From: Nematopogon swammerdamellus
Lineage: Eukaryota; Arthropoda; Insecta; Lepidoptera; Adelidae
Assembly: GCA_946902875.1 (NCBI GenBank)
Contig: OX336345.1
Coordinates: 15,345,395 to 15,409,394, forward strand
Reading direction: 5' to 3'
Length of the DNA stretch: 64,000 bases
The translations under genes were made by a program, and so were the position numbers. Below, piece after piece: positions 21,382-54,273 of the stretch; position 1 is the stretch's first letter, and the number at the start of each line of letters is the position of its first letter. The notes below the pieces were generated by a model that saw nothing but the letters and a program-made list of their open reading frames with translations, was not told the DNA's origin and made no database searches.

Positions 21382-22383
21382 TCAGAGGTTGGGGTGGCGC
21401 GGGTACATGGTCTGAATGAACACGTTGGCGTCAGGGTTGTTGTACTCGCCCTGGAAATGTTGTAGTACCAGCGTGACGGTGCCCACATCGAAGCTCTCCG
21501 TCCGGTTCCCGCTGATCCACGTACCGGCTGGGACAGGTCGGGGTAGCGCCAGATCATCGCGAGATAAGTGCACTACCACCCGCATGTTACCTATGTTCAG
21601 GGCGTCCATAGATTGTCTAGTCTTTGTGTTAATCAAAGCGTAGTGAGCAACAAAATCCTGGTCGCGATAAGACTCGAATCCAGTCTTTCGGCCCTCGAAG
21701 GAGTAAGCTTCGATACCGACACCGTTCGGATTGGAGACGTGATTTCTGGGATGAGCTCTCGCTGGGAACTTTTGACCCCGTTTTCCTTGACACTTGTCCA
21801 GGTAGCAGCCGGCGTCTTGAGGCCCGTTCCCGGTGTAGGTTGCTCCTCCCCATAGTAAATCGACACCGTCGTACACTTCAAAAGTCACAAAGCTCGCAAT
21901 GCGTTCTAGCGTGAAGGCCTTTAGGGTAGTTGGATTTATACCAGTATGGTCACTTATGCAGTTATACAGACACATATTTTCTTGTTCTGACGACGCGAAC
22001 GGTTCTCTGGCTCCTAATAACGTATAATGTTGAACATCTTTATGGTATTGCACTTGGACGGGTAGTTCGTCACATGTTTTATTTCCAACTTTAACGTTTA
22101 GTCGTTCCTTCTGATCGTAAATCTCTATGGGTTTATTGATTAATTCACTGATCGCTTCCAAATGTGGAATTCCAGCGAAATTGTGGTTCAATACACGATC
22201 AGAAATTTTATTATTATCAATAGGAATAGCTTCAGATTTATCAATACTAGTTGCATTTGATATTACTTTACTGGGAATAAAGTACATTGCGTAGTCGTGT
22301 AATCTATTGAAAATACAATTTTGGTAATTGAGGAGACAATGTAAAATTGAGTTTGTTTGGGTTAAAATTTCTGTTAGATTCAT
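21382..22383 (-). CDS. OTU-like C-terminal protein, paralogue of the SecA/OTU giant
   Basis: 333 aa from an ATG at 22,383. Residues 1-70 are unique. From about 74 the protein aligns by eye with the last 285 residues of the 2,528-aa protein at 45,066. Shared blocks are LEAISELINKPIEIYD, QYHKDVQHYTLLG (His119), NMCLYNCISDHTG (Cys138), HPRNHVSNPNGVG (His211, His215), GFESYRDQDFVAHYAL and TLVLQHFQGEYNNPDANVFI. The His119-Cys138 spacing of 19 equals that of the giant protein. The blocks around the Cys and the NKPIEIYD segment look like halves of an OTU cysteine protease. It has no motor, no membrane segment and no signal peptide. A splice acceptor (TTATTTTCAG) at 22,520 suggests a 5' leader exon. 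The ankyrin gene lies 509 bp upstream on the same strand. It may be a working small paralogue or a remnant of a longer gene. The reading frame is intact. Confidence 0.7.
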   Translation of the reverse strand: MNLTEILTQTNSILHCLLNYQNCIFNRLHDYAMYFIPSKVISNATSIDKSEAIPIDNNKISDRVLNHNFAGIPHLEAISELINKPIEIYDQKERLNVKVGNKTCDELPVQVQYHKDVQHYTLLGAREPFASSEQENMCLYNCISDHTGINPTTLKAFTLERIASFVTFEVYDGVDLLWGGATYTGNGPQDAGCYLDKCQGKRGQKFPARAHPRNHVSNPNGVGIEAYSFEGRKTGFESYRDQDFVAHYALINTKTRQSMDALNIGNMRVVVHLSRDDLALPRPVPAGTWISGNRTESFDVGTVTLVLQHFQGEYNNPDANVFIQTMYPRHPNL

Positions 22384-22520
22384 TTTTAGAAAAATTTTGT
22401 ACTTAAGTATTTTGAAACCAAGTAGTTGGACCGAATGTAAGTATATATCTTGTTTAGAGACTTGCTTAGTGGAAGGATGGAAAACGGGAGTATTGTTACT
22501 TGCGATTTCTTACGTTCTGC
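22384..22520 (-). promoter_or_regulatory. Probable 5' leader exon of the OTU-like gene
   Basis: On the minus strand a long pyrimidine-rich tract ends in TTTTTATTTTCAG, with the exon beginning at 22,520 (GCAGAACGTAAG). The start codon of the 333-aa ORF follows 137 nt later. The donor of the upstream exon is not identified. Confidence 0.4.
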
Positions 22521-22891
22521 CTGAAAATAAAAACAAAAATTTTAAAACGTCAAGTATAGATTCCCTCGTTATCCATGGTACCTATTGAGTTCCCCGCGAT
22601 CTAACTGCGTGGTGCACGCTCGTCTTATGATGACTTTAAGTACTGAAGTACATTAATCTAGGATGAATCAATTTCATTCAATTAAGTATTGGAGATATGG
22701 TTCATGTATCGTTCTATAATTCTATACCAGATATGACTAACCAAACTCAATAGGAAGAAATCTCAACAAATTGTGTATTACATTTACTGAAATAAATTAC
22801 ATCTAGGCCATATGTATATAATTAAAATTACATTAGAATTTCTTGAAATGAGTTTCAAAGTGATCATATTGTGCATGAAATAACAAGTATT

Positions 22892-23554
22892 TTAATCGAA
22901 ATAATCTTTGACGTCTTCGATGTCTTTACTGCCTCTTTTCGCCAAAAATTTGGCAATGCTTATACGATCATTTTGAGCAGCGACGTGAATTGGGCGGTCG
23001 CCGATGTCGTCCATGTGATTTATATTTGCCTTGTATTTATCCACCAAAACACGAGACAGCTCTTCGTATCCATTTCGAGCAGCGACATGCAGCACGGTGC
23101 AGTTGTATCCCCCTCTGTCAACCGCGTTTACGTCGGCCGCTTGGGTTTCGATCAGTTCAGAAACTTTAGTGATATCGTTTGCTGCGACAGCTTCGAATAA
23201 TTTGTCCACCTCTTCACAGTTGAGGAGACCCTGTGCGTACTCAGATAGCTTGGAGTTCCTGTCGATGAGAAACCTGCACAGTTTTGCGTGGTAATTGTCT
23301 TTGGCTATTTGAAGAGGTATTTCTCCGTGGTCGTTGACCGCGTTGACGTCCGCTTTATACTTGTCGACCAGGAGTTGAGCTAGCTTATCATAACCCTTGT
23401 ACGCGGCAAGGTGTAGAGCTGTTGCGTTCTTCTCGAGGGTGTTTCGCGCGTCCACCATTATTTTTTTCGTTTCCAACATTTCCTCTATTTTGCCCAGATC
23501 GTTTTCGTTAGCAGCTTTAAAGAAAATTGCTATGTGTTCTCCGTCAGCACTCAT
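22892..23554 (-). CDS. Ankyrin-repeat protein (module copy 2)
   Basis: 220 aa from the ATG at 23,554 (MSADGEHIAIFFKAANEND). The frame stays open further upstream but only through a likely intron boundary (acceptor TTTTTCTAAG before 23,602). The product is almost entirely ankyrin repeats, with five or six helix-pair units: ATALHLAAYKGYDKLAQLL, GEIPLQIAKDNYHAKLCRFL, TVLHVAARNGYEELSRVLVD and DRPIHVAAQNDRISIAKFL. There is no signal peptide or membrane segment, so it is probably an intracellular protein-binding protein. It is very similar to the protein at 53,569-54,273, down to the inter-repeat words VDKYKANIN and DIGDRP. Both sit directly upstream of an OTU-like gene on the same strand, which suggests shared ancestry of the pair and possibly joint function. 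Confidence 0.8.
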   Translation of the reverse strand: MSADGEHIAIFFKAANENDLGKIEEMLETKKIMVDARNTLEKNATALHLAAYKGYDKLAQLLVDKYKADVNAVNDHGEIPLQIAKDNYHAKLCRFLIDRNSKLSEYAQGLLNCEEVDKLFEAVAANDITKVSELIETQAADVNAVDRGGYNCTVLHVAARNGYEELSRVLVDKYKANINHMDDIGDRPIHVAAQNDRISIAKFLAKRGSKDIEDVKDYFD

Positions 23555-23602
23555 TTTTAAGTATAGCGTCTTCGAAAGCGCAATTATCTTCACGAATGTT
23601 TT

Positions 23603-24159
23603 CTTAGAAAAATAAAAAATAGGTTGAGTCTTCATAGATTGTAAGTGCCTAGCTTTAGGAAACTTACTTTTGCATATAACCGTAATGGGCACAATTTGCA
23701 GGATCTATGCAGGTTCGATCTTCTGTATGGTATTACCCAGATTATCATGAATATTTGAAGATCGTAGATATTGTCTGAAAGAAATAAAACACATTTTCTA
23801 CACTATACTAATATAACACTTTTATTTAATAGGAGGCCTAAGAACAAGTGAAAAATAGTACTCTACTTCGACTTCAGTCCATCTCCACCCTATACAATGT
23901 TGAGTTAAAATGAATAAAATAAATAGAAATTAGCAACCTATGTAGATTATTCTGAGTTTTTTGAGTGGTCTAATATTGTCATAAAAAACCAAAGACTGTG
24001 GTGAACTATATACTATATAGTAAAATGCTAACTGTCTAAAATGTCATGTAATGTATGTGTCATATTCTTTCTGCTTCTACAACATGTATTTTGTTGATTA
24101 AAGCCTAATACTAAATAATAGGCAATGTGTTTATTTACGATCACCTCAATTTAATCAAC
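23603..24159. other. Upstream region of the ankyrin gene
   Basis: No gene is seen. On the minus strand it holds the likely acceptor for a 5' leader exon at 23,602. The rest is AT-rich. The exact promoter is not visible. Confidence 0.35.
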
Positions 24160-25280
24160 AAAATGGAAAAATATCTCCGACCGGAACGCTTCAACGCGGA
24201 CCCCAGGGCGGACACCGACTTGTCCCCTCAGTGGACTCATTGGAAGAAAACCTTCGAAAATTTTCTTCAGTCAGCTGCTTCGGTAGACTCAGGCAAACTC
24301 ACAGATCACACAAAATATCAACTCCTCGTCAATCATCTCTCGTCCGAAGTTTACAATCACATAAAATATTGCTCGGACTATCAAGCATGCATTTCGAAGC
24401 TGGACGAGTTATTCATAAAGGCTCCGAATGTGGTCATATCTCGTCACAAGCTGGCTAATCGAAAGCAACAAACAGGCAACATAATCGACCTGTTCCTTCA
24501 AGAACTGAAGCTGCTCTCAAAAGATTGCTGTTTTCAATCTGTCACAGCTGAACAGAACGAGAAAGACTACACCAGAGACGCGTTTATATCAGGTCTTGCT
24601 TCGCCTCTCATTAGGCAGCGTCTGCTCGAGAACAGCTCCTTGCAACTAGACGACGCGCATAGTCAAGCCAGAGCTTTATAACTAGCTCAACTCCACAACT
24701 AGAACTATGAGCACCAAGAACTTAACTTCAACGCAGTTCTGGCTCTTGTGACGGCCAACGCTGCTACTTCTGCGGGCATAAAAAACATGCTCGCGAAGAT
24801 TGTCCTGCAGCAAATGTGACATGCACAAAATGTCAGAAAAGGGGACATTTTGCAAAAGTTTGCCGCAGTAAGTTGAACAGAACGGCCGCTATTCGAACAT
24901 CTATCGCCATCGATAGCGATAACGAGAGCAATGTGCATACAACTACATGCGTAATATCAGCTACAGGCTTAAGTAAGGCTATAACATCTATATACATAAA
25001 CGACATACCGGCAAAAGCATTGATAGACTCGGGTAGCATACCGAGTTGCATCGATAGTCGTTTTGTCCATAAACATAACATAAAGAAAGACTACTCCTTG
25101 CAACCAACGTGTATCAATGGCATCTTCAATGTTCGCCATAGACATAGACACGCTCTGCACTGTGGATGTACAAATGCAAGGCGACACGACTACAACAGAC
25201 TTATTTGTCATGAAAAATTTATGGTTCAATGCCATAGTAGGCAAACACGTACTAGATATGTACTCGTCAGTTGAAATATA
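24160..25280 (+). pseudogene. Ty3/gypsy-like gag and protease fragment
   Basis: An ATG at 24,163 (MEKYLRPERF) opens a Gag-like region of about 170 aa ending at a premature TAA (24,679-24,681). Further on, in another frame, are two CCHC zinc knuckles at about 24,750-24,870 (CYFCGHKKHAREDC and CTKCQKRGHFAKVC). Then comes an aspartic protease-like stretch with KALIDSGSIPSCIDSRFV near 25,015-25,070, and the frame breaks again near 25,125. Gag binds the element's RNA and the protease processes it. The reverse transcriptase and integrase are missing and no LTRs were seen. This is a dead fragment lying between the two ankyrin/OTU modules. Confidence 0.75.
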
Positions 25281-26109: not shown

Positions 26110-26200
26110 TATTAGCACAACCGTGATTCAGGCCATAACACCTTGGTGAACTAGGTGACATGTCAGTGCTTCCCTTTGATCGTGGCGGCAACCGGACCAG
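26110..26200 (-). repeat. SINE tail fragment
   Basis: The plus strand reads CAGGCCATAACACC, then GGTGAACTAGGTGACATGTC, then AGTGCTTCCCTTTGATCG, the reverse complement of the SINE 3' body. It is short and diverged. Confidence 0.6.
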
Positions 26201-27640: not shown

Positions 27641-28036
27641 GTCAGCCTCGATAGCTCAGTGGTGCAGACAGTCAACTGTCGCTATTGAATGTTAAGCAAC
27701 GCTGGGTGCAGTCAGTACTTGGACTTGGATGGGTGAACGCTGACCGTTGGAGGCTGACCGAGGTTTGGATTCATCGTAAAACTGTAGGTCCCTTCCCTCC
27801 TAATCTTACTTGGTGGTAGGGTTTAACCCGCCCGGGTTGGTACCACAGCACTGAATGAAACGTCGGTCGAAACGGCTATGTAAATAGTTTGTGTTTTCCG
27901 ACCAGTTCAGTGTAGTCAGCACGATCAAAGGGGGAAGCACTGACATGTCACTTAGTTCACCCGGTGTTATGGGCTGACATCACGGACGTTGTAGGTGATG
28001 TAGCCAACCGTGTCAGTTTCCATAAAAAAAAACCTT
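27641..28036 (+). mobile_element. SINE with tRNA-like A box and 5S rRNA-like head
   Basis: The head has CTCGATAGCTCAGTGG (tRNA A-box form). 27,691-27,740 follows 5S rRNA closely (GTTAAGCAACGCTGGGTGC, GTCAGTACTTGG, GATGGGTGA), interrupted by a small GGACTT insertion. A body with AACCCGCCCGGGTTGGTACC and the common tail with GGTGTTATGGGCTGACATC follows, ending in CATAAAAAAAA. It is about 390 bp and non-coding. Pol III transcription and mobilisation by a LINE are inferred from known SINE biology. Confidence 0.8.
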
Positions 28037-28452
28037 ATCCCCTTTCAAACAAAAAAAAAAGAATTTTCAAAATCGGCCCACAATTGACGGAGTAATCGCG
28101 CAACAAACATCCAAATAAAGAAAACATACCGTCGAATTGAGAATCTCTTAGGTCTAAAGTAAATTGCTCGTGAAGACAAATGCAACGAGCCCAAACACGA
28201 TGGGTTTATCATGGTGTAGTTTAGGAGTTCCTATCGCCACCTTCCGTCTCCATCATCAGACCAGCTCGATGGTACTCGTACCATAATATATTAAGTGCAC
28301 TGAAAAGAAAAAAGAGAAAAAAACAAATCTGGCCGGTCGGAAAAGAAAAATTTCAAATTTAGAATATTCATGAAACAAGGGTCCGAATATGTATCACTAG
28401 TATATCGATTCATGTATTTTAACAGGACAGAGAAAATGTCAAAATATTAGGT

Positions 28453-31380: not shown

Positions 31381-31828
31381 CCAAATCCCCCCCCCCCCCC
31401 CACACCCCTTTAAATGTGAAATCCAAAATCCCTGAAACACGTAATCATTTATTTATGATGAGTAGCTAGAATTATGATTTTCAAGTTTCTACCTTTACAA
31501 AACCTGATACTCCTATTAAATTTTTAACCCCCCGTTTCCCCCTCTTAAAATGTGATAATCCGAAAATCTTGAAACATGTCATTATTTATTTACGATGAGT
31601 AGCTACAATTATGAAAAAATCTAATTTTGAAATCATCCCCTATTTTAATATAGGGTTGATTTTGCAAAAAACGCTGAGACACGTAATTCTTTATTTCATA
31701 CCAAAAGCCTAAATATGAATTGTCATATCCCTAACTTGGAGAAATGCTGGGTTCCCCATACAAACTTTCATCCCCTATTTCACCCCTTAAGGGTTGTTTT
31801 TTGAGACAAAAGGTAGCCTATTAGTGGG
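31381..31828 (+). repeat. Tail of dispersed repeat after the minisatellite
   Basis: It contains a poly-C run (31,388-31,401), CACGTAATCATTTATTTATG and a diverged second copy, TCATCCCCTATTTTAAT, and GAGACAAAAGGTAGCCTA. 31,630-31,820 matches 40,820-41,020 in the same orientation. It looks like the 3' half of the repeat that hosts the minisatellite. Confidence 0.6.
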
Positions 31829-32722
31829 GGATTTAGTGCGATAGTTTGTATGGACACCCTGCATTTTTACTTAGAAGGCTCATACTTGCAACAGTTGTTC
31901 CTTAGGTGCTCCTGAGTGGATTTCCACCGGTAGACATCGGGGGTCACCGCGGGGGTGGCGGGGGGAGGGGGTGGAAGTTTGCTTCTGCCGCGCTTCACTT
32001 TGTACCCTATTCCTTCAAAACTATAGGTATTAGGGCAAGTGTGATGTCATTTTCAGATAACTCAAGGACGACGGATTCATTTCTGGAAGAAACATTTTGC
32101 CTTTCTATACAAAAAAATATAAATATTAGGCAAAACTCACAAAACGTGAAAATATTTTTTTTAAATAAACGTCGTTTACTTTTGAACTACTAAAGATAAA
32201 GATAAATAAAAAATATTTGCTAAAAGCTGCATTTACCAGAATTACAAATGTGTAAATTTTATTGGGATGGAGTAATAATAAGTGAGTGAAAAAAAAAATC
32301 AAAACAGTGCGGTGTATTTACATTTTGAGGCTAACATAGCGAAAACAGTACCTAGGTGATACGTGATAATTATTATTATTATACATTTGTAAAATTATTG
32401 CTAATTAAACATTAAATTATTCACATACACACACACACACACCCTCAAATACACACACACATACCTACCTTACCCATGTTTGTGATTGCTACCTAAAGTA
32501 AATGCTTTATATTTATTACCATGTCGTCATTTTTTTATGGAAACTGACACGGTTGGCTACATCACCTACAACATCCGTGATGTCAGCCCGTAACACCGGG
32601 TGAACTAGGTGCCATGTCATTGCTTCCCTTCATTTCGCGCCGGCTACACTGAACTGGACGGAAAACACGAACTATTCGCATAGCCGTTTCGACCGAAGTT
32701 CTATAAATTTCATAAAGTTCTA
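31829..32722. repeat. Left arm of a large inverted duplication
   Basis: This arm of nearly 900 bp is the reverse complement, with small differences, of 39,856-40,757. Shared content in mirror order: TGCATTTTTACTTAGAAGGC, GGATTTCCACCGGTAGACAT, GGGTGGCGGGGGGAGGGGG, a CA microsatellite (32,428-32,460), a SINE tail (32,537-32,695) and CATAAAGTTCTATTA at the inner end. The identical reading frames starting MLLSGFPPVDIGGH on both arms come from this repeat and are not genes. Confidence 0.9.
32537..32695 (-). repeat. SINE tail inside the left inverted arm
   Basis: ATGGAAACTGACACGGTTGG, then ACATCCGTGATGTCAGCCC, then CGGGTGAACTAGGTGCC, then AGCCGTTTCGACCGAAG. It is present in both arms, so the SINE inserted before the inverted duplication formed. 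Confidence 0.8.
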
Positions 32723-36746: not shown

Positions 36747-39620
36747 ACACATATTATTCTTAGGGCTGTTTTAAATTCTGATTACGATGTGATATGTTTA
36801 ACGGAAACTTGGCTACTTCCTGGTATTTTCAACGCGGAACTATTTGGTCAAGAATATAATGTTTACCGTTGCGATCGCCAGTATGACGAGTTAGGTAAAA
36901 AATTGGGAGGTGGTGTCCTAGTAGCTGTGAAGAGAGGAATATCCGTGTGTGCCTCCATGGACGCGCCTCTGCCCCCTCCGCTGCCAGGCGCCGAGGTGGC
37001 CGCGGTCACCATCGCTATCGGCGGCGGAGGCGCCTCGGCCTCGCCTGCCGCGATCCAACGCAGATCGCGTAAGTTACGAATATATTGCGCTTATTTCGTA
37101 CAGTGCCCTGAACAGGCACAAGCCCAAACAGAATTTTATGATTTTATCACTAATATTTACAATGATCACCCCCGCGACTCGTACTTTATCGTAGGTGATT
37201 TTAATGTAAGTAACGCTCAATGGGTTTACTCCGCGGATGGAGACCGCTCTCTGAGTATCAATAATTCATTAAACGGACCTTTAGTGTCTTCCTTATCCGC
37301 CTTCCTAAATCTGAGTAGTATGAAGCAATATAACAATGAACTTAACGTTAATAATAGGGTGCTCGATTTGGTTATATCTAATAATGTATGCTCGGTGGAG
37401 AGCAGTGAGAGCCCGCTAGTCCCGGAGGACGCTCACCATAAGTCCCTCCACATTCAGATCCGGCTGGAAGGTGAGTCGCGCCTCACCGCGACTCCTCGCA
37501 CTATCCGCTTGTTCCACGCTGCCGATTATAATATTATAGAAAGAGCTATTGGTGAAGTTGATTGGCAGACTGAACTTAACGATTTAGATATTGACTCAGT
37601 TATTGTACGATTTTATGAATTAATTAATGCCATAATAAACTCTTACGTACCGACGAAAACAACTAAGAAATCTGGTAAAAGTCCTCCATGGTTTAGTCCG
37701 GCGTTATTAAAAATTATTAAAAATAAGTTAAAATTTCATAAAAAATATAAAATATATGGTCGAGTGGCAGACTATGAAATGTTCACATTACTTAGGAAAC
37801 GTCAGAAGGAAATGGAGCAAATATGTTATGATGCTTATATTCATAAAGCTGAAAATAATATTAAATCAAATTGTAAATTTTTTTGGACCTTTGTCAAATC
37901 GAAACAGCAGTCTAGTAGTTTACCTTCCAATCTATTTCATGGGGATATTCATGTTTCCGGTGGCCAGCAAATTTCCGATGCATTTAATGAATTTTTCCAG
38001 TCTGTGTTCGAACCTCCTGTAAACTTAGCCCCGCGTTCCTCCACTGGCACCGACATCGGGACCGGAGTAGACTCACCCGTCAACATGAGCACTATCCGCA
38101 TAGACCGGCGCAAGGTGGTCAAGTACTTACGATCTGTTGACGAATCGAAAGGCACCGGCCCGGATGGCCTGCATCCATTATTTATTAAGCGTTGTGCTGA
38201 TTCGTTATCATCTCCGATTCATATTATCTTCTCGAAATCGCTCACTAGTGGTATATTCCCATTAGAGTGGAAGAAATCGTTTGTAGTGCCGATCTTTAAA
38301 AAGGGTGATGCTCACGACATATCCAACTACCGACCGATCTCCAAACTTTCAGTCTTACCCAAATTATTTGAAAAGGTTGTTTATGATATAATATTTCCTG
38401 TGTTACGTCCACATTTCATAAACAACCAACACGGTTTCTTAAATAAAAGGTCTACGGAAACGAACCTGTGTGAATTCGTGGACACGGTTCTCGGTGCCAT
38501 GAGCGATGGTTTCCAGGTAGACGTCGTGTATACCGACTTTTCTAAATGTTTTGATAAAATACCTCACAGCTTACTTTTGCGAAAAATGGAGAACTACGGT
38601 ATGCACGGCGACCTGCTTCGCTGGTTTGCATCGTACTTAGAGAACCGTAGTCAAGCGGTAACAGTCAGTGGTTTCTGCTCGAGTTTCGTGCCAGTTTCTT
38701 CCGGAGTGCCCCAGGGATCTCATATGGGACCACTCCTGTTTAATATATTTATCAACGATATTCTTTCCTCTATTGTCTCGTCTGAACTCTTACTCTATGC
38801 AGATGACGCAAAAATAATAAAAATAATTACATCAGTTCATGATTGCAACAATCTACAACGAGATCTGGGTCGCTTGGGCAAATACTGCAGTGACAACTTC
38901 ATTCAACTTAATGTTGACAAATGTAGCTGTATCACATATACGAGGAAACCTAACTTCATTAAGTATAACTATAACCTAAACAATCAAATACTAAAGCGAG
39001 TGGACGAGATTCGGGATCTTGGTGTCATATTGGACAGCAAATTGCTTTTTAAGTCCCACATCGAAAGCATAACCAAAAAGGCATATCGGATGTTGGGTTT
39101 CATTTTCCGCACCTGTGCGGTTTTCAAAAATCATACAACCTTTTGCTTGCTTTACTCAGCCTACGTCAGGTCTCACCTAGAATACGCCTCGATTATTTGG
39201 AATCCACAGTACAGCGTTTATATTAATGAAATCGAACGTATACAAAACAAATTTTTAAGATACGTAGGCTATCGAACTCTGAATGGTGAATCTAGAGATA
39301 AAAATATATTTTCTTCATATCCTCTTTCGCAGAGAAGGCAAGTTTCGGACGTTACCTTCTTATACAAAATTATTAACAACATTGTCGAATCTCCCTACTT
39401 ACTGGAGAGAATTAAATTCAGATGCCCAAACAAACGAACACGTTCCAACGACACTTTCATTTTATATAAAACCCACTGTAATTACAGTAAACATAGATTT
39501 ATTAATAGAAGTTGTAAATTATATAATGAAATTTTCCATAGTGTAGACATATTTAATTCAAAATTAGGTAGTTTTAAGAAACAGTGTTTAACTTTGTGCA
39601 CAAAAATTAATTTGCTCTAG
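36747..39620 (+). CDS. LINE B endonuclease/reverse transcriptase (5'-truncated)
   Basis: The frame is uninterrupted for about 950 codons. The first part is an endonuclease of the EEP fold (VICLTETWLLPG, GGGVLVAVKRG, YFIVGDFNVSNAQW, then DAHHKSLHIQI). The middle is a reverse transcriptase: FKKGDAHDISNYRPISKLSV, NQHGFLNKRSTETNL, VYTDFSKCFDKIPH (catalytic Asp), SGVPQGSHMGPLLFNIFIND and LLYADDAKI (catalytic Asp pair). The C-terminal region has RSHLEYASIIWNPQY. It differs from LINE A in sequence and motif wording and so is a different lineage of jockey/CR1-like appearance. The long intact frame suggests a fairly recent insertion. Confidence 0.85.
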   Translation, partial: THIILRAVLNSDYDVICLTETWLLPGIFNAELFGQEYNVYRCDRQYDELGKKLGGGVLVAVKRGISVCASMDAPLPPPLPGAEVAAVTIAIGGGGASASPAAIQRRSRKLRIYCAYFVQCPEQAQAQTEFYDFITNIYNDHPRDSYFIVGDFNVSNAQWVYSADGDRSLSINNSLNGPLVSSLSAFLNLSSMKQYNNELNVNNRVLDLVISNNVCSVESSESPLVPEDAHHKSLHIQIRLEGESRLTATPRTIRLFHAADYNIIERAIGEVDWQTELNDLDIDSVIVRFYELINAIINSYVPTKTTKKSGKSPPWFSPALLKIIKNKLKFHKKYKIYGRVADYEMFTLLRKRQKEMEQICYDAYIHKAENNIKSNCKFFWTFVKSKQQSSSLPSNLFHGDIHVSGGQQISDAFNEFFQSVFEPPVNLAPRSSTGTDIGTGVDSPVNMSTIRIDRRKVVKYLRSVDESKGTGPDGLHPLFIKRCADSLSSPIHIIFSKSLTSGIFPLEWKKSFVVPIFKKGDAHDISNYRPISKLSVLPKLFEKVVYDIIFPVLRPHFINNQHGFLNKRSTETNLCEFVDTVLGAMSDGFQVDVVYTDFSKCFDKIPHSLLLRKMENYGMHGDLLRWFASYLENRSQAVTVSGFCSSFVPVSSGVPQGSHMGPLLFNIFINDILSSIVSSELLLYADDAKIIKIITSVHDCNNLQRDLGRLGKYCSDNFIQLNVDKCSCITYTRKPNFIKYNYNLNNQILKRVDEIRDLGVILDSKLLFKSHIESITKKAYRMLGFIFRTCAVFKNHTTFCLLYSAYVRSHLEYASIIWNPQYSVYINEIERIQNKFLRYVGYRTLNGESRDKNIFSSYPLSQRRQVSDVTFLYKIINNIVESPYLLERIKFRCPNKRTRSNDTFILYKTHCNYSKHRFINRSCKLYNEIFHSVDIFNSKLGSFKKQCLTLCTKINLL

Positions 39621-43373: not shown

Positions 43374-43377
43374 AGAT

Positions 43378-45065: not shown

Positions 45066-48000
45066 TTATGGTTTTGGAAAGATGGTATGAATAAAGACTG
45101 GTGCACCTGCATTGGTATATTGACCCTGGTGGTGCTGCAGAACCAACACAACCTCCTGCAGCTCCCACCTCGACTGCTGTATGCCGTTCAACCACTTGCC
45201 TCCTTTTGTAAAGGTTGGGTGGCTGGGAAGGTTTAATTCCGCCCGCGTCAGCTTAACTGTCTGACGATAACTACCTGGTGTATTAGATTTATTCAACATG
45301 CCAATTTTTTTCTGAGTTTTCGGGTGTTGCAAAGCGTAGTGAGCTACAAAATCTTGAGCGTCGTACGACAGGAAGCCAGTTTTTCCAGCTGGATCAGTTT
45401 TTGAATATTCCTCTACAGACTCGTTTTGGCCTACTGCTGAGGGGTTTGAAGCGTGACCTCTGGCGTGACCGGGCGGTGGTACATAATTAGGATTTGAATT
45501 TGAAGAGTGCCCCGATATGCCTTGAGAATGATCGATGAACGACTTCGCGTCGCTTGGACTCTTTCCGGCGTACTGAGCACCGCCCAAGCACAGTTTTAGA
45601 CCATCGTAAATCTCTAATCGAGTTATGTCTGCCGATTGTTTGGATAATTCCACCTTGTTGCTTTCCATCCAATCCAAGGTACACTTCTTCAAGGTATCGG
45701 AATTGACGCCAGTTTGATCACTAATTACGTTAAAAAGACACATATTAGCACCTTCGCTTTGAGCGAATGATTCCCTATTTCCGACGACAGTGTAATGTTC
45801 CCTGTCTTTGTGGTGTTGTACCTTCAGAGGTTCCCCGCTCTTATTGTCTCCGATTGTAAACTTTAAACGTCCCTTCTCGTCGTAAACTTCTATCGGTCGA
45901 TTCGTTACGTCACTTATAGCACCTAGTTGTGGAAGGCCACATTTCTCTCCGTTTCGAACCTCTTTTATAAGTTCATTAGCTTTATGTATCGAAGGATCAT
46001 TTTCGTCTATGCTTTTATTAATTAATTTGTTTTTCGATTCTCCTCGGTAGCCTTCGTTTTGATAATGAATAACACGTTTTAAAGATCTATAGTTTTCGAT
46101 GTCTTGATTTAGAGTCGCATCAAGCCCACTTGTAATTGTTTGCATACTGTAATTAACACCTGCTTGTAGTGCGGGATTGATCATTTTACCTTTTATAATG
46201 GATAACATATTCATGGAAACACTACTGACTATTATTTTTGACAGTTGTGACGAATCTGTGACTTTTTTTCTCTTCGGTTTATCAGATCTAACCTGCTCCT
46301 CCGGTCCTTTATTAAGTTTAATATCGTCTTGTACATCCATTGGTTCTGGGTTACTTTGGGTTGCAGTTGCTTCTTCATTTACAATATTTTCGCTTTGCTT
46401 GAATGGTTTTTTATCGTCATATTGCTTTTTTTCATCTTCATTTTGGAGCATTGAACCAATTTCACTTTCTTTTTCATTCAGCTTGTCAGATTTCGCCTTA
46501 TTCTCTATTTTCTCATTTAGCTTACTAATAAATTTTGGGACAAATGATGAAAGATCGTTTAAGGCCATTACTGCTTCCCCAATTTTTCGTCCCGTAGCAA
46601 AATATTTAATTTTACCGTCTGCGATTCCTGTTGCAATTTGTTTCCCAATATTCAATAATTTAGATTTACATGTCGTATCGAGTAGTTCGAATGCCGCCGA
46701 TTTGACAAAATTTTCGTAACCGTTATTTTGATTTTTTGCGTCCAGCTCTAACATGATTTTGATATATTTATTATTTTGCAACGCGTCCTGTATATCACCT
46801 TCAATAATTTCAACAAGTTTTTCTTGAATCATCGGTATAAGTGTCTTTTCGAGACCATAGTTTGCTAAATCATTAACAATTTCTTTTGCAACTCCCTTAG
46901 CTAGTTCGGTACCAATTTTGTTTGCCACTAATTTCCAACCACTTTTCACAGTTTCATTTATAACTTTTTTACCTAATGTTTTCACCCCAGAAGAAACTGT
47001 GTTTGCGACATCTTTAATAGCGCCTATTCCGGCACAAACAACACTCACTGTAATGCTAATTGCCTTTTGAATAGCCCAGCTTGCCCAGTTGAAATCTCGA
47101 TTAATTATACCGTCTTTTACAGCAGCGATAATATCGCTTATGCCTTCAGTGATAAGGCTCATTGCAAGTGTAGCGCCAGAACCTAAAGTATAAACAGCAA
47201 GAGCAGCACCAGCAATTAGCTGACCCAACCCTAGAACCATTAAACCAAATACTGCTTTCCAGTCTATTGGTTTTATTTCAGAAACTTTAAAACTACCAAC
47301 AAAGCCATTTCTGTTAAATTCTTCAATTTCATCTTTATAAAACTCCATTTCATTCTCAGGTAAGCATTCACTTATATTCATTAGTTTAACATCAATATTT
47401 CTTTTCCTTTCTAGTGCCCCTTCAATGACGCCTTGGCGCTTTTTATCGGTTTCCATTGTTTGAATTAAATCCTCAATATTTCTGATTTCTTCTTTTTTAT
47501 CTTTGTGTGTTGCTTCTAATCGGTTATTTAAAGATTTTATTTGCTCATCTATTTCATCTCTGTCTGGTCCGATAGCTAGATCTATAGCTTGTTTCTGAAT
47601 GTTATAAAGATTCATTTTATGTTGAACTTGTTCAGAAAAAATCTCCGAGCTTGATGCTCTTTGAATCAAATGTAAGTCCGCTTCTCTTTTTTGTATTAAT
47701 TTTCTAGCTTTCCTTAAGTTACTAATAGCATCTTCAATCTTTAATTTATTTTCAGACACTGTATTTCCATATTGTGCGAGTAAACAGTAACCATGGTTGT
47801 AATAAGCATGCTCGGCGAAGTGTTGGTCTAAGTCTATAGCTAATAAAAACTCCTCACCAGCCTTTTTATATTTCTTTTGACTCAATAATGCTCTCCCAAT
47901 CAAGACGTGGAAGTATGCATTTTTGATAAGCTTAGAATGGCGATCATCGTCAAGGATATTGTCTTCAAATGTTTTGAAATGTTGAATAGCATCACTTCGA

Positions 48001-51000
48001 GTTTTGTTGTTTATAAAGTTTTCCTCTAATTTTAACCACAAAGCGAATCTTTCTTGAACGGCTCTTAATTCAATACTTCTTCTGTCATTGTCACGTCCTT
48101 TTATTTTATCCAGAAGACGAAGAAAGTTAGCAAAAATTATTTCCTTTGTCATCACGATTTCTACATCTTTTTCAGCTTTAGATATAACATTGTTTTGATT
48201 ATCATCTCTTTCTTTTCTAATATACTTGATGTCTTTTCCACTTTTGTGAAACAACATCAATTGGCTTGTGCCTCGGTTACCGGTGCGCGATGTTCGACCC
48301 GAATTTTGTTCTTCGACTCTTGTGTTAATCGGTAAAAAAGTGAGACATACATGAAGCCCACCATTTTCATTAATTGACGGTGCTAATTTTATATCTGTTC
48401 CTCTTCCTGCTATATTCGTAGTCAATATTATTTCGCCGGGCTGAATCACTCTTTCAACTACTTTTGTATCTTCATCTGTTTTAAATAACAGTATTTTTGA
48501 AGTATCATACTTAGTATCATTAAATTTTAGGTATAATTCATCTATTTCTTTTATAAATTTAGTGATTACCAGGACAGCGCGGCCACAGTTAAGCTTTGAG
48601 ATACAGTTACTAACTATTTCTGTGTGCCATTTGCTCTCTGTGTTATATATTATAGGTGTTAACTTGACGTGTTGTTTTTTCTTGAAAGGCGGTACAATGA
48701 CAGTGTCAAGTTTGTATACCTTTTCTAAAAAGTCACTACTTTTTTTATCACCTAGAGTTCCAGTTAAACCATATATTTTATTGGTATATCTTGTAAAAAA
48801 ACCAATATTTGATATATAATTATTGGTTAAGCTTTCAGGATATAATTTGGCACCATGCTTTATTTGTAAAAACTGATGCACACCATTACTCCAGTGTTGA
48901 TTTTCTTGTACTATCCCAGTGTTTTGTGCATCTACTGGCAATACTTTACCATCACGTATTAAATAATGTTTCGTGTTTTCATATACATATTTGGCTGTTA
49001 TGGCACTGTCAATCCATTTTGGAATTTGAATGTTACAGACGAAGTCTCTCAAGTGATTAGGAATTTGAACTTCAGGATAGTCACTCCCTACATCTACTTT
49101 ATCGCGAACTAACTTACGTATGTGTGTTTCTGTAGCGTCTTTAATGAATTTTTCGATTGTGCAATTGAGAGGAATGGCATTTACTTGTCCTTCTATCTTC
49201 ACCGTACCATCATTATTTATTCTATTTTCAGGTTGAAGATAATACGGTTTTCCGTTTATTTCTTTAACACAATTAGCGACGGCATCGATTTGAATAACAA
49301 TAGCAGCCAGTAATGTTTCTAAATTGTTCATACCGGGCATGTTATCAGCTAACATGACGATATGGTTATTTCCGTCAATAAACATACTGTCTACTTCGTC
49401 TACTATAACCACATCAAACTTTCTACCATGCCGCCGGTTCGATTTGTTGCATTCATCGCGTAGTACATCTGCTTCAAAATCTAACACAGGTCCATAACAT
49501 ATATTTGCGAGATACCCCTCTGTATTATTAAAATTATGAGAAACTGATAGATCTAACATAGAATAAAATTTTCTCTGCTGGTCGCACTGAGGTACTGCTA
49601 ACACAGGTGAGGTTGTTATAACGTCGACTTGGTGTTTGTGTAAACCATGGTACGCAGCGATCATTGCAATTATAGTAGTTTTACCTTCACCAGTATTTAT
49701 CTGCGCAAGTCTCCCCTTTTCCTTTGCTGGATTAACCATCAGTAATACTGACATTATTTGAATAGTTCTGGGAGTTATGCTCGATGCTAATTCCATTGCT
49801 TTTTTTATGACAGCAATTTTCTCGGATTGTAGGACGATATCGTTGTTACGATTTTCTTTTAAACATTTTGCCCAATTATTAATTTCACTGGGATTCCAAT
49901 CTTTAATGGACATTCTCGTGACAAATAGAACAGAGTTTCCATTATAGGCCTCAATTACTTCGTGGAAGGATCTTCTTAGCTCACTGTCTTTTAAAATATC
50001 GATATTTTTATTTTGGTTTAATTCTTTGAGTTCATTTAATAAATCAGCTTCTTTTTTTTCATATGTTCCCGCGAATTTCTTTGTTATGGCATACTGAAGA
50101 ACGTTCGCTTCCAATTTAGCAGTATTACATTTTTTTATAATTTGTTCGATTCCGTCCTCCTCTATTAAGTCATAGTCGATAATAATTTTGATAGCATTTG
50201 TTAATTTGTGTATTTTATCTAACGAATCGAGACTTTGAACGAACAAGGCTATACGTTGTATAGACCAACCTCCGAGGCTTAAAAGTTTTGCCGTGTTCTC
50301 CTCCATTTGATGAAGCCCACTACTCAATTGCTCATACAAATTACATTTATCGTCACCCAAATAATCGTTCAGTAGGTTCTTTTCGCCACTGCTCTTATCG
50401 ATAAACTTAGAGCGTTTTGTTTCTTTTTTGCTGGGAAATATTTTGTTCAATTGACTTTGCATTTTGCTCGATTTTTTTTTTATTTTAATGGGAATTTGAG
50501 GTTCGTTAGATTTCTTATTACTATAGTTCGGAAATTCATTGCGAATTAAATGGCGAACGACTAAGTGAGATAGCTGAAGTTTCCACACATCAATGCTTTC
50601 AGAACTCAATTTTCTTAAGAAGACATGTTTATTGTAATCTGTTAGATGACTGTCATTTAAAATGTTGACCAAACATATTAAGTCAAACATATTTGATTCT
50701 TTTTTAACTTTATTTATAAATGTTTTGACCGTACTCACGTCGTATATTTCTAAGAGCTGGTGCAATTGATATAAATCTGAATGACTGTCTGAATTTATAT
50801 TTATTTTTCTATTTCTTAAAATCTGTCGATCATCACACATCTTGCCCAGCCATAAAAACTCCATATCAATCAATTCTTCTATAAAGTTGCAATCATCATT
50901 AAGCAATATATCTACGTGGACGGATTGAGTCTGAGAAACTATTAATATGTTGATAATTTGACTTAAATTAAAATTGTACTTGTTTTGTTTATTTATCAGT

Positions 51001-52652
51001 GACTTCAATAAATGTTCAATTCTTCTTGTGCTTAAAACATCGTTGCTAACATTCTTCCTTACAAAACTCTTCAGCAAATTAATTTGTTCCATGAATTCTT
51101 TCACTTTAATTTCACTCCACCCTTGAATATCAGATTCTATTGACCTTCCTAACAATATATATGTCAAAAGTTCGCTATGCCATTCCTTTGGTTTAAAATT
51201 ATTAAAAATAGAGGTATCGATTGTATACCCATTGTATAAAATTACGGACAGTGTTTCGAGCAGAGCAAATCTTTCTTTTGTTGTTATAGTATGACTACCG
51301 AGACGTTTATCTAATTTGGACAATTCTACAGCCTTGATGGTCAGCATTCGTGCCTCTGATCCCACTTTTCCATGTGAAGTGTGGTTAGACAACTTAAGGT
51401 TGGATCGAATGTTAATATTGTAATAATTATCGTAAAAATCATACGGCAACTCTGTCATAAACTGTTCCATACATTGTAATGCAATCAAGCTTATTAAAAG
51501 TTCTTTGTTCTCATATGTTGAACCTTTTGGTTGGAGTGCAATCCTTTTCAATGATTTTATTACGCTAGGATTCTCTACAAACGCTGGATTCAGTTGAATT
51601 TGCTTTATTAAAGCATTTGAGGCGTAAATTCTTTCACCGATTCGGACGTCAGTATTTTTGAAAATATTCAAGGACAGGCGGAATATCTTTTTGTTACTTT
51701 TGTTCATAATGCTCGATAGTCTTACTAATTCTACGACGTTTAAATGGCCAAGTTCGTGCTTGTGTAGTATCTGTTTTATTATATTACATTTACTGATTAG
51801 TTCGTCGGAGTCGGGTTTAGTTTCCTGCAGAAAAATCGATATAAAACTAGGAGTAATAAGGTTTGTATTATTAGAACCTAGATCAATAATATTTTTTCGC
51901 GTTTCTTCCTTCAGCTTATTTGATCTCGACAAATTAAGCAATAACTTGGCTATATTTTCAGGTGACGAGCTTACAGTCCATTTCTTTATCAGTGTTGATA
52001 TATCATCGTCCTTTACATCGAAACCGTACTTGAGGGATGTACGAATTGTTGTTAAATTAGACATGTTTTCATCTGCCGTCAGAAATACTATCGATAGACA
52101 TAAATCAAATAATGCGAAAGAATTAAAATATTGATTAACTGAAAAGATGTGAAATAATATAGTAATACTTATACATATTGCTGATGTATTAGTTTTACCT
52201 GTTAAATATTTTAGAAGTTCTGCGATTCGAAAATTAGTTTTGTAATAGATGTTCTCAAAATAATAATAGGAACCATGACCTAAGATCATTAAGACAGCAA
52301 AACATATTGGATACAACCAGACCAACTTAATGTAGAAGTAAATTAGAAAATTGAAAGCGTGTCTTGATTTTAAGAATTCATAGTTATTTTTTGATACTGA
52401 TGACTGCGGAAACAAAGTAAAGATTGAAAAAAGTATACAAACTAGAAAAACTACCCAATATTGGAAGCCTTTTTCAAAATGTGCATAATGAACAACTGAG
52501 ATTGTAATAATAGATGTTATGTAGCTAACTACTTCATGTAATCGTTTACGTTGCAATACTTTTCCATTGCGCAAAATATTAGCAATGTAATAGGTGTTTA
52601 AAATACATAAAATAACTCTGATTACTACGGCGATTGCTGGTGATACTGACAT
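45066..52652 (-). CDS. Giant SecA-like motor / OTU-like protein (2,528 aa)
   Basis: The first ATG is at 52,652 (MSVSPAIAVVIRVIL); codons upstream in the frame lack an ATG. There is one 7.6-kb coding exon. Residues about 3-200 hold five or six hydrophobic spans, so the N terminus is probably in a membrane. About 200-900 is helical with no recognised motif. About 970-1,470 is a SecA-type DEAD motor: TGEGKT at 987-992 (ATP binding), DEVD at 1,085-1,088, TNIAGRGTDIKL with GRGTD at 1,416-1,420, and GRTSRTG from 1,452. About 1,570-1,625 looks like TPR helices (LIGRALLSQKKYKKAGEEF), then coiled coil to about 1,760. About 1,794-1,865 is a glycine-rich hydrophobic segment, and 2,041-2,131 a charged linker. 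About 2,240-2,528 is the OTU-like end (His2286, Cys2305, His2396/His2400, His2438). Bacterial SecA drives protein export; here only the ATPase signature is seen, and the cell role is unknown. A close C-terminal paralogue lies at 21,382. Confidence 0.8.
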   Translation of the reverse strand: MSVSPAIAVVIRVILCILNTYYIANILRNGKVLQRKRLHEVVSYITSIITISVVHYAHFEKGFQYWVVFLVCILFSIFTLFPQSSVSKNNYEFLKSRHAFNFLIYFYIKLVWLYPICFAVLMILGHGSYYYFENIYYKTNFRIAELLKYLTGKTNTSAICISITILFHIFSVNQYFNSFALFDLCLSIVFLTADENMSNLTTIRTSLKYGFDVKDDDISTLIKKWTVSSSPENIAKLLLNLSRSNKLKEETRKNIIDLGSNNTNLITPSFISIFLQETKPDSDELISKCNIIKQILHKHELGHLNVVELVRLSSIMNKSNKKIFRLSLNIFKNTDVRIGERIYASNALIKQIQLNPAFVENPSVIKSLKRIALQPKGSTYENKELLISLIALQCMEQFMTELPYDFYDNYYNINIRSNLKLSNHTSHGKVGSEARMLTIKAVELSKLDKRLGSHTITTKERFALLETLSVILYNGYTIDTSIFNNFKPKEWHSELLTYILLGRSIESDIQGWSEIKVKEFMEQINLLKSFVRKNVSNDVLSTRRIEHLLKSLINKQNKYNFNLSQIINILIVSQTQSVHVDILLNDDCNFIEELIDMEFLWLGKMCDDRQILRNRKININSDSHSDLYQLHQLLEIYDVSTVKTFINKVKKESNMFDLICLVNILNDSHLTDYNKHVFLRKLSSESIDVWKLQLSHLVVRHLIRNEFPNYSNKKSNEPQIPIKIKKKSSKMQSQLNKIFPSKKETKRSKFIDKSSGEKNLLNDYLGDDKCNLYEQLSSGLHQMEENTAKLLSLGGWSIQRIALFVQSLDSLDKIHKLTNAIKIIIDYDLIEEDGIEQIIKKCNTAKLEANVLQYAITKKFAGTYEKKEADLLNELKELNQNKNIDILKDSELRRSFHEVIEAYNGNSVLFVTRMSIKDWNPSEINNWAKCLKENRNNDIVLQSEKIAVIKKAMELASSITPRTIQIMSVLLMVNPAKEKGRLAQINTGEGKTTIIAMIAAYHGLHKHQVDVITTSPVLAVPQCDQQRKFYSMLDLSVSHNFNNTEGYLANICYGPVLDFEADVLRDECNKSNRRHGRKFDVVIVDEVDSMFIDGNNHIVMLADNMPGMNNLETLLAAIVIQIDAVANCVKEINGKPYYLQPENRINNDGTVKIEGQVNAIPLNCTIEKFIKDATETHIRKLVRDKVDVGSDYPEVQIPNHLRDFVCNIQIPKWIDSAITAKYVYENTKHYLIRDGKVLPVDAQNTGIVQENQHWSNGVHQFLQIKHGAKLYPESLTNNYISNIGFFTRYTNKIYGLTGTLGDKKSSDFLEKVYKLDTVIVPPFKKKQHVKLTPIIYNTESKWHTEIVSNCISKLNCGRAVLVITKFIKEIDELYLKFNDTKYDTSKILLFKTDEDTKVVERVIQPGEIILTTNIAGRGTDIKLAPSINENGGLHVCLTFLPINTRVEEQNSGRTSRTGNRGTSQLMLFHKSGKDIKYIRKERDDNQNNVISKAEKDVEIVMTKEIIFANFLRLLDKIKGRDNDRRSIELRAVQERFALWLKLEENFINNKTRSDAIQHFKTFEDNILDDDRHSKLIKNAYFHVLIGRALLSQKKYKKAGEEFLLAIDLDQHFAEHAYYNHGYCLLAQYGNTVSENKLKIEDAISNLRKARKLIQKREADLHLIQRASSSEIFSEQVQHKMNLYNIQKQAIDLAIGPDRDEIDEQIKSLNNRLEATHKDKKEEIRNIEDLIQTMETDKKRQGVIEGALERKRNIDVKLMNISECLPENEMEFYKDEIEEFNRNGFVGSFKVSEIKPIDWKAVFGLMVLGLGQLIAGAALAVYTLGSGATLAMSLITEGISDIIAAVKDGIINRDFNWASWAIQKAISITVSVVCAGIGAIKDVANTVSSGVKTLGKKVINETVKSGWKLVANKIGTELAKGVAKEIVNDLANYGLEKTLIPMIQEKLVEIIEGDIQDALQNNKYIKIMLELDAKNQNNGYENFVKSAAFELLDTTCKSKLLNIGKQIATGIADGKIKYFATGRKIGEAVMALNDLSSFVPKFISKLNEKIENKAKSDKLNEKESEIGSMLQNEDEKKQYDDKKPFKQSENIVNEEATATQSNPEPMDVQDDIKLNKGPEEQVRSDKPKRKKVTDSSQLSKIIVSSVSMNMLSIIKGKMINPALQAGVNYSMQTITSGLDATLNQDIENYRSLKRVIHYQNEGYRGESKNKLINKSIDENDPSIHKANELIKEVRNGEKCGLPQLGAISDVTNRPIEVYDEKGRLKFTIGDNKSGEPLKVQHHKDREHYTVVGNRESFAQSEGANMCLFNVISDQTGVNSDTLKKCTLDWMESNKVELSKQSADITRLEIYDGLKLCLGGAQYAGKSPSDAKSFIDHSQGISGHSSNSNPNYVPPPGHARGHASNPSAVGQNESVEEYSKTDPAGKTGFLSYDAQDFVAHYALQHPKTQKKIGMLNKSNTPGSYRQTVKLTRAELNLPSHPTFTKGGKWLNGIQQSRWELQEVVLVLQHHQGQYTNAGAPVFIHTIFPKP

Positions 52653-52933
52653 GACACAAATCAATCAATTCGTATCAGTAATAATTTGTATTGATCTAAT
52701 GAGTTTCAACAAAGCTTTGCATTCTCGTTACAAGGCATATCCGAGGTATTCAGGCCACATCTGGTAAGAGAACCGGCTGCCGAACGGTTCTCGTGAGGCG
52801 AGTGACGAGGTCCACCGGCACTGCGGGATCTCTCAGCTGTGTTAAGGCGCCGCCCAAACACAGGCGGCGACGCTGGTCGCGGAAGCACATCCCTCGTCAA
52901 TCGAAGCCATATTGCATACGAAATGCGATCCCC
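52653..52933 (-). promoter_or_regulatory. Probable 5' leader exon of the SecA/OTU gene
   Basis: On the minus strand CTTTCATTTCAG precedes 52,933, where GGGGATCGC begins. The 280 nt to the ATG are GC-rich in their middle (52,780-52,900) and contain upstream ATGs. The splice acceptor is a good match. The donor, and therefore the promoter, is not identified; 53,000-53,060 holds candidate sites. Upstream ATGs might damp translation. Confidence 0.4.
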
Positions 52934-53568
52934 CTGAAATGAAAGTTTATAATAAAATATCTGACAACAAACTCAATATGCACGTGGACAAGGTAACAGA
53001 GGTGTGATAGGACCGCACCTGGAGTGGAGCCTGCCTCGCCCTGCTGGAACGTTTGTGTACGTATGTGTGTAAATATAATATTTTCTATCGTCAACTAATT
53101 AATTATTATTGTTCTTAAAAAAAAAAGACTTATCTGCGAGTGCATGCCTAAAACACATTATTTTTACATTACATGTAAAAATATATATATTTTATATTTT
53201 CCGACTATGTTGAGCTTTTTCGTGTTGTTAAAAGACTTGATGTATGTTGGAAATTCAAAAAGATAAGACCGTAAGATTCATAAGGAACTTGAAGATATAA
53301 ATTGAATAGCATTGAATTTATTTTGATGGCTGCATTTATTTTGAACTCAGTGAGTATTTCAAACCTGACGGACATGAATGTACAACGTTATCAATTGCAA
53401 AAAAAACCCTCAAGACTTGTACCTACCTATACTACAAAAACAAAACAGATAAGATAAAAATTTTAACGTTTTAATTGATCATCGATTTCACTATGAATGT
53501 AAATATTTTTCAACGGTTGACACAATTAGTGAAATCTCAATTTATTTACTATAATAACTTACGAATAC
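52934..53568. other. Spacer between the SecA/OTU gene and the ankyrin gene
   Basis: A GC-rich piece at 53,005-53,060, then AT-rich DNA. No other gene is seen. This spacer holds the likely promoter of the SecA/OTU gene, since the ankyrin gene ends upstream on the same strand. Confidence 0.4.
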
Positions 53569-54273
53569 TTAAGCGTCCTTATTAGTTTTTTCTTGTGCCA
53601 TGAGAAATTCAAGTATTCCATTATTGTTATTTTGAGCTGCTACGTCTACAGGTCGATCCCCTATTTCGTCAGTAAAGTTAATGTTGGCTTTGTATTTATC
53701 AACCAAAATGCGAGCTAAATCTTCATATCCATTTCGAGCAGCGACGTGTAAGATGGTGCCATTGTAGCTTCCCTTGTCAGGACAGTTCACGTCGACGGCT
53801 TTGCTTTCGATCAATTCAGAAACCTTAGCGATATCATTTGCTTCAGCCGCTTCCACAAACTCTTCGATATCTGGAGTATTCATCACAGCGCTGGCGTACT
53901 CGGGCTTATTGGAGTTTCTTTTGATAAGGAACTTGCATATTCTTGCGTGATAGTTGTCCATAGCTACTTCGAGTGGTATTTGCCCAGAATCATCGGTAGC
54001 ATTGACGTCAGCTTTGTATGTGTCTACGAGTAGCTGAGCGATCTTCTCGTGTCCCCAGAACCCGGCGCGGTGCAGTGCTGTTGCATTTTCTTCAGTTGTG
54101 TTTCTGGCTCCTACGGGAACTTGGTTAGTCTTCAGCATTTCATCAACCTTCTCAATGTCACCCACGTCGACTGCTTCGAAGAAATCGACATATCGTTCAG
54201 TGGTAGAACTCATGGTTCGAACACTGCGTGCACTTAGGCGTACCAAATTTATTTTGGTCAATACGCTTTGCAT
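53569..54273 (-). CDS. Ankyrin-repeat protein (module copy 1)
   Basis: 234 aa from the ATG at 54,273; a second ATG at 54,213 (MSSTTERYVDFF) aligns with the start of the paralogue at 23,554. The first 20 residues (MQSVLTKINLVRLSARSVRT) are free of acidic residues, hydrophobic and Arg-rich, as in mitochondrial targeting sequences. If used, that start could change localisation. The rest is ankyrin repeats: ATALHRAGFWGHEKIAQLL, GQIPLEVAMDNYHARICKFL, TILHVAARNGYEDLARILVD, then DRPVDVAAQNNNNGILEFL. It differs from the paralogue at scattered positions but keeps the same repeat order and spacing. It lies 917 bp upstream of the SecA/OTU gene on the same strand. Role unknown; protein binding is the usual ankyrin function. 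Confidence 0.8.
   Translation of the reverse strand: MQSVLTKINLVRLSARSVRTMSSTTERYVDFFEAVDVGDIEKVDEMLKTNQVPVGARNTTEENATALHRAGFWGHEKIAQLLVDTYKADVNATDDSGQIPLEVAMDNYHARICKFLIKRNSNKPEYASAVMNTPDIEEFVEAAEANDIAKVSELIESKAVDVNCPDKGSYNGTILHVAARNGYEDLARILVDKYKANINFTDEIGDRPVDVAAQNNNNGILEFLMAQEKTNKDA

Follow-up and report, generated by a model that had tools for sequence, protein, structure and literature searches.

We analysed a 64,000-nt stretch of the Nematopogon swammerdamellus genome (GCA_946902875.1, OX336345.1:15,345,395-15,409,394, forward strand), hereafter the window, which carries two copies of a two-gene module; a third copy was found on another contig. In each copy, an ankyrin-repeat gene is followed by a gene for a polymorphic-toxin-like protein. 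One of the window toxin genes is long and encodes a SecA-fused protein, the other is short and lacks SecA, and both end in an OTU-like domain and a terminal domain modelled as ribonuclease (RNase) A-like. We favour, at close to an even balance, the reading that an RNase toxin was acquired horizontally and has been retained alongside a dedicated ankyrin inhibitor.

The module is present in three copies and duplicates as a unit

The initial annotation described two minus-strand pairs of the same order and orientation, with paralogous ankyrin genes, a C-terminal part common to the long and short proteins, and a second pair without the SecA motor. These points were borne out. The open reading frames (ORFs) place both window pairs on the minus strand in the order ankyrin to toxin gene (Table 1). 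The two window ankyrin proteins shared 56% identity over 219 positions (expect value, E, 8e-92), and the short protein matched the end of the long protein with 42% identity over 315 positions (E 2e-70), values that rule out a chance resemblance between the pairs. A whole-genome search with Pfam SecA_DEAD gave one match.

The genome comprises 699 Mb in 39 contigs, in which the window is C13:15345395-15409394, and all whole-genome match counts are lower bounds. The short toxin protein resulted in three matches, as did the ankyrin of the long pair. The ankyrin of the short pair resulted in five, comprising the same three at 55-100% identity and two distant ones at 26-29%; no close ankyrin relative beyond the three was found in the genome. 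The module had been described in two copies, and the third lies on contig C26 with the same order and orientation as the window pairs. Toxin ends adjoined close ankyrins at 3/3 places found, and all three close ankyrins were paired. An assembly duplicate is unlikely because only about half of the residues are the same in the two window pairs and because another contig carries a further pair; assembly duplication was therefore rejected. Bacterial contamination was also rejected, as the contig spans 24 Mb of the 699 Mb genome and LINE (long interspersed nuclear element) ORFs lie in the window.

The unit shared with C26 holds just the two genes. Its blastn match comprised the pieces 21299-23535 and 23645-23800 at about 80% identity. 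The C26 ankyrin was 85% identical to the short-pair ankyrin, and the intergenic DNA was 71% identical over 475 columns. The synonymous substitution rate (dS) between the short and C26 pairs was 0.425 for the toxin genes (bootstrap 0.322-0.551) and 0.378 for the ankyrin genes (bootstrap 0.257-0.523). The ratio of nonsynonymous to synonymous rates (dN/dS) was 0.333 (0.231-0.469) for the toxin genes and 0.202 (0.122-0.328) for the ankyrin genes, with overlapping intervals. As the dS values are alike and dN/dS is low, the toxin and ankyrin genes of these two pairs were probably copied together and both retained as proteins. Judged by these substitution ratios, both genes are under purifying selection and are kept as protein-coding.

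The initial annotation proposed that the two proteins work together or were acquired as a unit. The similar dS values and the 2.5 kb copy argue for duplication as a unit, and joint working or joint acquisition is possible. Duplication of the two genes at different times, which the annotation named as counting against its proposal, was not seen between the two short pairs; the step to the long pair is too saturated to date. Between the short pairs and the long pair, the proportion of synonymous differences (pS) was 0.71-0.80, near or at saturation, so that the long/short duplication is much older and undatable by dS. Blastn between the intergenic stretches of the long and short pairs resulted in no match, and the adjacency of the genes persists. 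In a tree of the OTU-like part, built from the 56 rows in which at least 90 residues aligned with the query stretch, all three module copies, the long one and both short ones, grouped (99/68, not starred) beside Plutella (99/96). The long/short duplication may thus postdate the divergence from Plutella, with the short copies changing fast.

The long protein belongs to a giant SecA-fused family

The long protein was submitted against 5.8 billion proteins, which resulted in 272 relatives at E <= 1e-3. The family counts rest on the best 120 of these 272, and sets of 121 comprise these plus the window protein. A search of the same type with the short protein returned 785 candidates, none at E <= 1e-3. 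The listed relatives include a bee, moths, butterflies, bdelloid rotifers, mosquitoes, sand flies, nematodes, Rickettsia, Megaera, Cardinium, and Amoebophilaceae; the nearest among those listed is from Plutella xylostella, with 52% identity over 91% of the query. Hydropathy assigned one N-terminal hydrophobic segment each to the Plutella and Pectinophora relatives.

The SecA label of the initial annotation stood for the motor, which is SecA-like, and fell for the protein. A true SecA translocase was rejected, as the NCBIfam secA equivalog score was 175 bits against a cut-off of 800, and the protein is of the SecA-fused polymorphic-toxin type. Four relatives, chosen because precomputed domains pointed to toxin ends, were scanned, and 4/4 had C-terminal toxin domains: AHH (Toxorhynchites, Aedes), Ntox50, and CdiA_C. 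The family therefore shows the conserved long body and exchangeable C-terminal toxin domains of polymorphic toxins. Two relatives (P0051 and P0056) were 93% identical over 3149 positions and then unlike just after YMGG, the Gly-Gly behind the OTU-like domain. In polymorphic toxins, releasing peptidases are thought to free the toxin domain. That the terminal domain is swapped for other effectors in relatives marks it as the business end of the protein. Membership of the long protein in a giant SecA-fused polymorphic-toxin-like family of intracellular bacteria, rotifers, and insects is fairly well supported. The family architecture comprises a SecA-like motor, TPR-like and hydrophobic regions, a permuted OTU-like domain, and a C-terminal effector that varies.

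A tree of the motor part (all 121 rows, quick method, midpoint root) placed the window and Plutella proteins in a 14-row insect clade with a Shimodaira-Hasegawa-like approximate likelihood ratio test (SH-aLRT) support of 100. The clade includes eight Lepidoptera, the window counted, and one bee. Rotifer and Rickettsia rows fell outside this moth-containing clade, and mosquito genes fell elsewhere, with Cardinium and Amoebophilaceae rows. The topology is consistent with several transfers that involved animals and intracellular bacteria, and the direction was presumably from bacterium to insect. Animals do acquire single bacterial toxin genes. The AHH-ended members of Toxorhynchites (P0072) and Aedes albopictus (P0090) grouped apart from the moth clade, possibly as a separate capture.

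Within the order to which the Amoebophilaceae genome G001 belongs, 8/291 genomes had a match. The records that the long protein recovered from plasmids and phages were mostly annotated as SecA or unannotated. SecA is among the phage WO domains described as nearer to invertebrate than to bacterial sequences in PMC5062602. In the Candidatus Megaera plasmid CP113870.1 (L007:347-20815), two tandem giant genes annotated "SecA-like domain" occupy about a third of 57 kb, and the 13.8 kb Legionella geestiana plasmid NZ_CP041715.1 (L008) consists mostly of an 8.8 kb SecA-family gene.

Seven bacterial loci were read. Three of them (L034, L035, and L036) reach the contig end, so four show a gene behind the toxin gene. 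In a Bacteroidota genome (L032), a 136 aa gene (1013-1423, minus strand) lies 8 bp behind the family gene, with a weak match of 22.5 bits, under the 27-bit cut-off, to WapI, an immunity family. L010 carries a 184 aa gene 13 bp behind the family gene and L033 an overlapping 332 aa gene, both on the same strand and without a Pfam family, and L037 carries an opposite-strand U-box gene. The family member at L036:1-11206 (plus strand) combines ankyrin repeats, a UCH-type domain, and SecA, with the UCH match split over two ORFs. In L009, a 165 aa ORF overlaps the end of the family gene.

The shared end comprises an OTU-like and an RNase A-like domain

The roughly 285 residues shared by the long and short proteins had been called OTU-like. 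A permuted OTU-like domain is present, and a separate RNase A-like domain follows it after an invariant Gly-Gly. The top fold match of both terminal-domain models was 5e3e, the Yersinia kristensenii CdiA toxin with an RNase A-like fold; the matches listed for the first model also include amphinase, onconase, RNase 6, and ECP. The active site of 5e3e is described as His175, Thr276, and Tyr278 (PMC9086364). Placed by the aligned-range ends, these residues fall on His215/Thr325/Tyr327 of the short protein and His2404/Thr2527/Phe2529 of the long protein, and the inferred catalytic positions are kept in most aligned relatives. The superfamily's catalytic set also includes an Arg or Lys; a putative equivalent Lys, placed by sequence order alone, was found in 17/28, with Lys233 as the candidate in the short gene.

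Pfam and PDB sequence searches with the RNase-like domain resulted in no match; members of the RNase A superfamily share little sequence similarity, according to PMC9086364. The BFVD fold search returned no match at E <= 0.001, and the C-terminal alignment A1 led nowhere against prokaryote genomes and viral contigs. An RNase-like profile matched 20/121 proteins (12/113 without its training rows). These 20 include 14/14 rows of the insect clade, five of which were training rows; in P0044, the match lies 502 residues before the protein end. From the models, a predicted RNase A-like fold of the bacterial CdiA-CT kind is fairly well supported for the terminal domain.

The long-gene model of the preceding domain matched EschOTU, with the OTU fold and the His...Cys order. 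This permuted order is described for EschOTU, a deubiquitinase, in PMC7396840. The OTU His and Cys were invariant. The residue two positions after the His in the window domains is Thr, not the Asn, Asp, or Glu of permuted OTUs. The short protein scored 15.8 bits against the Pfam OTU cut-off of 23.3, and no match was listed for the long protein. An OTU-like profile matched 93/121 proteins (67/95 without the rows that trained it); the match positions are those of the first matched stretch and are unreliable for P0007, P0034, P0038, P0043, and some others. In P0009, P0012, P0026, P0032, and their relatives (bee, Pectinophora, Aricia, Papilio), about 130 extra residues separate the GHPxxH-type motif from the RNase-like domain. 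In the alignment, these residues look like a second piece of an OTU-like domain.

The ankyrin partner and the competing readings

The ankyrin proteins are small and acidic, with isoelectric points (pI) of 4.8-5.7. Ankyrin repeats are listed among polymorphic-toxin immunity proteins as Imm-ank (PMC3482391), and the ankyrin protein Bd3460 of Bdellovibrio is described as an inhibitor of its own cell's endopeptidases (PMC4686830). The chances that the insect ankyrin protein acts as an antidote or inhibitor of the RNase-like toxin are about even.

Under the favoured reading of a toxin kept with its inhibitor, a SecA-OTU-RNase gene would have been captured from an intracellular bacterium, a step supported in outline. 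An ankyrin gene would then have come to sit upstream of the toxin gene and become its restraint. The toxin-gene end and the ankyrin without SecA make up a minimal 2.5 kb cassette, which is seen on two contigs. The OTU-like domain may cleave the protein at the Gly-Gly junction or close by, and the RNase freed in this way would cut RNA unless bound by the acidic ankyrin protein. If the ankyrin blocks the toxin in this way, a toxin copy would not be kept without an ankyrin copy. The most likely insect role would be that of a held-back effector, in defence or regulated RNA cleavage, rather than protein export. Defence against intracellular microbes or viruses is our first choice of use, and a selfish toxin-antidote function the second. 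We advance more tentatively, as a proposal that may well fail in some part, that an animal nucleus maintains a working bacterial-derived toxin-antidote pair. Such a pair would combine an OTU-released RNase and a purpose-evolved ankyrin inhibitor, with the delivery machinery shed, in a self-copying two-gene cassette comparable to bacterial orphan toxin/immunity cassettes.

Several observations weigh against this reading. A protein database search with the ankyrin returned 355 candidates, none at E <= 1e-10, a result that speaks against conservation of the pairing beyond this lineage. Other family members showed no separate ankyrin partner, and the small bacterial neighbours scanned (L010 and L032) are not ankyrins. 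The C26 copy is the product of a simple segmental duplication that took in the intergenic DNA. In plasmids and phages, the ankyrin query recovered ankyrins at 25-32% identity, including those of phage WO and a Cardinium plasmid, and searches of viral contigs with the ankyrin and with alignment A2 led nowhere.

The lack of a separate ankyrin partner in other members and the segmental nature of the C26 copy suit an alternative in which only the captured toxin gene was domesticated, the ankyrin being an unrelated neighbour carried along in the 2.5 kb segment duplication. We consider this explanation rather unlikely. The adjacency in the long and short pairs survived despite saturated or nearly saturated synonymous sites and the lack of an intergenic blastn match, the duplicated unit is exactly these two genes, and selective constraint on the ankyrin is no weaker than that on the toxin (dN/dS 0.20 vs 0.33, intervals overlapping).

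A further point against a toxin with a dedicated inhibitor is that ankyrin repeats occur within the same SecA-family protein in 11 of the best 120 relatives, including Adineta P0041. These fused repeats make a split-off adaptor possible. The OTU-like domain would then be active, with the ankyrin as its substrate adaptor and the terminal domain secondary, as the invariant His and Cys and the deubiquitinase described for EschOTU in PMC7396840 might suggest. This alternative is improbable, given the Thr two residues after the His and a terminal domain whose inferred catalytic residues are preserved across most aligned relatives and which is swapped for other effectors elsewhere. A selfish element that spreads by killing offspring without it, in which the RNase end would be the toxin and the ankyrin a zygotic antidote, would account for the tight two-gene linkage, the three copies with one on another contig, the nuclease-like fold, and the two copies that have lost the SecA part, but it is quite improbable since dN/dS is low rather than elevated and the long-gene lineage is common to other insects.

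Comparison with known systems

The toxin with an ankyrin inhibitor that we favour resembles several described systems in part. For CdiA-CT of Y. kristensenii (5e3e), the best fold match of both models, the His, Thr, and aromatic positions appear to align and a partner gene adjoins. However, no sequence match was detectable, two insect copies have Phe for Tyr, the insect partner is an upstream ankyrin instead of CdiI, and the host is an insect nucleus. The giant SecA-family proteins of Rickettsiales, Amoebophilaceae, and Cardinium share the SecA motor, hydrophobic domain, OTU-like domain, and variable C-terminus, whereas the short insect copies have lost SecA. A Pfam scan of the window protein did not recover the Ulp/RickCE-type domain that P0038 and several rotifer members carry, and this domain is not listed for the Plutella, Pectinophora, Aricia, and bee relatives. 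The insect domain differs from EschOTU (PDB 6W9S) in having Thr, not Asn, two residues after the His and in preceding a further effector domain.

Imm-ank and Bd3460 provide the precedent of an ankyrin-repeat protein restraining a harmful enzyme of its own cell, as proposed for the insect ankyrin, although their targets have other folds (Tox-AHH, endopeptidases). The ribocin (RbcN) of Pseudomonas aeruginosa has an RNase A-like fold closest to CdiA-CT of Y. kristensenii and acts on eukaryotic rRNA, as described in PMC13189344, but it is a stand-alone bacterial protein. Each part of the module thus resembles known things, whereas the separate ankyrin pairing, the threefold copies, and the two-gene reduction in an animal nucleus were not found in the literature searched. 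The search found no paper on this module in insects, although this does not prove that no such paper has been published.

If correct, a toxin captured and multiplied with an antidote-like partner would show how a genome can tolerate and reuse a cell-killing enzyme. A possible identity also emerges for the insect genes that carry the labels "protein translocase subunit SecA" or "uncharacterized protein" in pest species and disease vectors (Plutella, Pectinophora, Aedes, Phlebotomus).

Features of the window and neighbouring elements

Table 1. Positions of the module genes, their domains, and related features (window coordinates unless a contig is named)
Feature	Position	Strand	Details and basis
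Long gene, SecA-fused polymorphic-toxin-like protein	45066..52664	-	2532 aa, single intact ORF; first ATG 52652; SecA_DEAD E 2e-31
N-terminal hydrophobic stretches, possible membrane segments	52074..52664	-	Residues 1-197; extent of true N-terminus unsure; hydropathy scan
SecA-like motor	48252..50027	-	Residues 880-1471; Pfam PF07517, PF21090, PF01043; GEGKT (992), VDEVD (1088)
Conserved hydrophobic domain after TPR-like stretch	47004..47258	-	Residues 1803-1887; common to family; alignment A2, hydropathy
Permuted OTU-like domain, long gene	45606..46028	-	Residues 2213-2353; His2290 before Cys2309
RNase A-like domain, long gene	45069..45476	-	Residues 2397-2532; His2404, Thr2527, Phe2529 at inferred catalytic positions
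Ankyrin gene, long pair	53569..54273	-	234 aa, upstream of toxin gene; ORF; Ank_2 E 1e-23; pI 4.8; proposed inhibitor
Short gene, permuted OTU-like and RNase A-like	21382..22383	-	333 aa; no SecA or hydrophobic segment; ORF, model, hydropathy
RNase A-like domain, short gene	21385..21762	-	Residues 208-333; His215, Thr325, Tyr327 at inferred catalytic positions
Ankyrin gene, short pair	22892..23554	-	220 aa from ATG 23554; ORF 22892-23692, 266 aa
Unit copied between window and C26	21299..23800	.	About 2.5 kb, two genes; approximately C26:6800718-6803247; blastn
C26 ankyrin gene	L006:294-1001 = C26:6802293-6803000	-	Genome search
C26 toxin gene	L005:8780-9799 = C26:6800779-6801798	-	Genome search
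LINE-type reverse transcriptase ORF between both pairs	36789..39620	+	RVT_1 E 1e-29

Between the two window pairs, where transposon debris had been reported, lie the LINE reverse transcriptase ORF and a retroelement protease and zinc-knuckle ORF (24816-25274, plus strand). Two LINE-type ORFs (5228-8122 and 36789-39620, both on the plus strand) are uninterrupted, carry endonuclease and reverse transcriptase domains, and are possibly young insertions. A strong AT skew (0.30 and 0.22) and a GC skew of 0.12 and 0.11 set positions 28001-32000 apart from most of the window.

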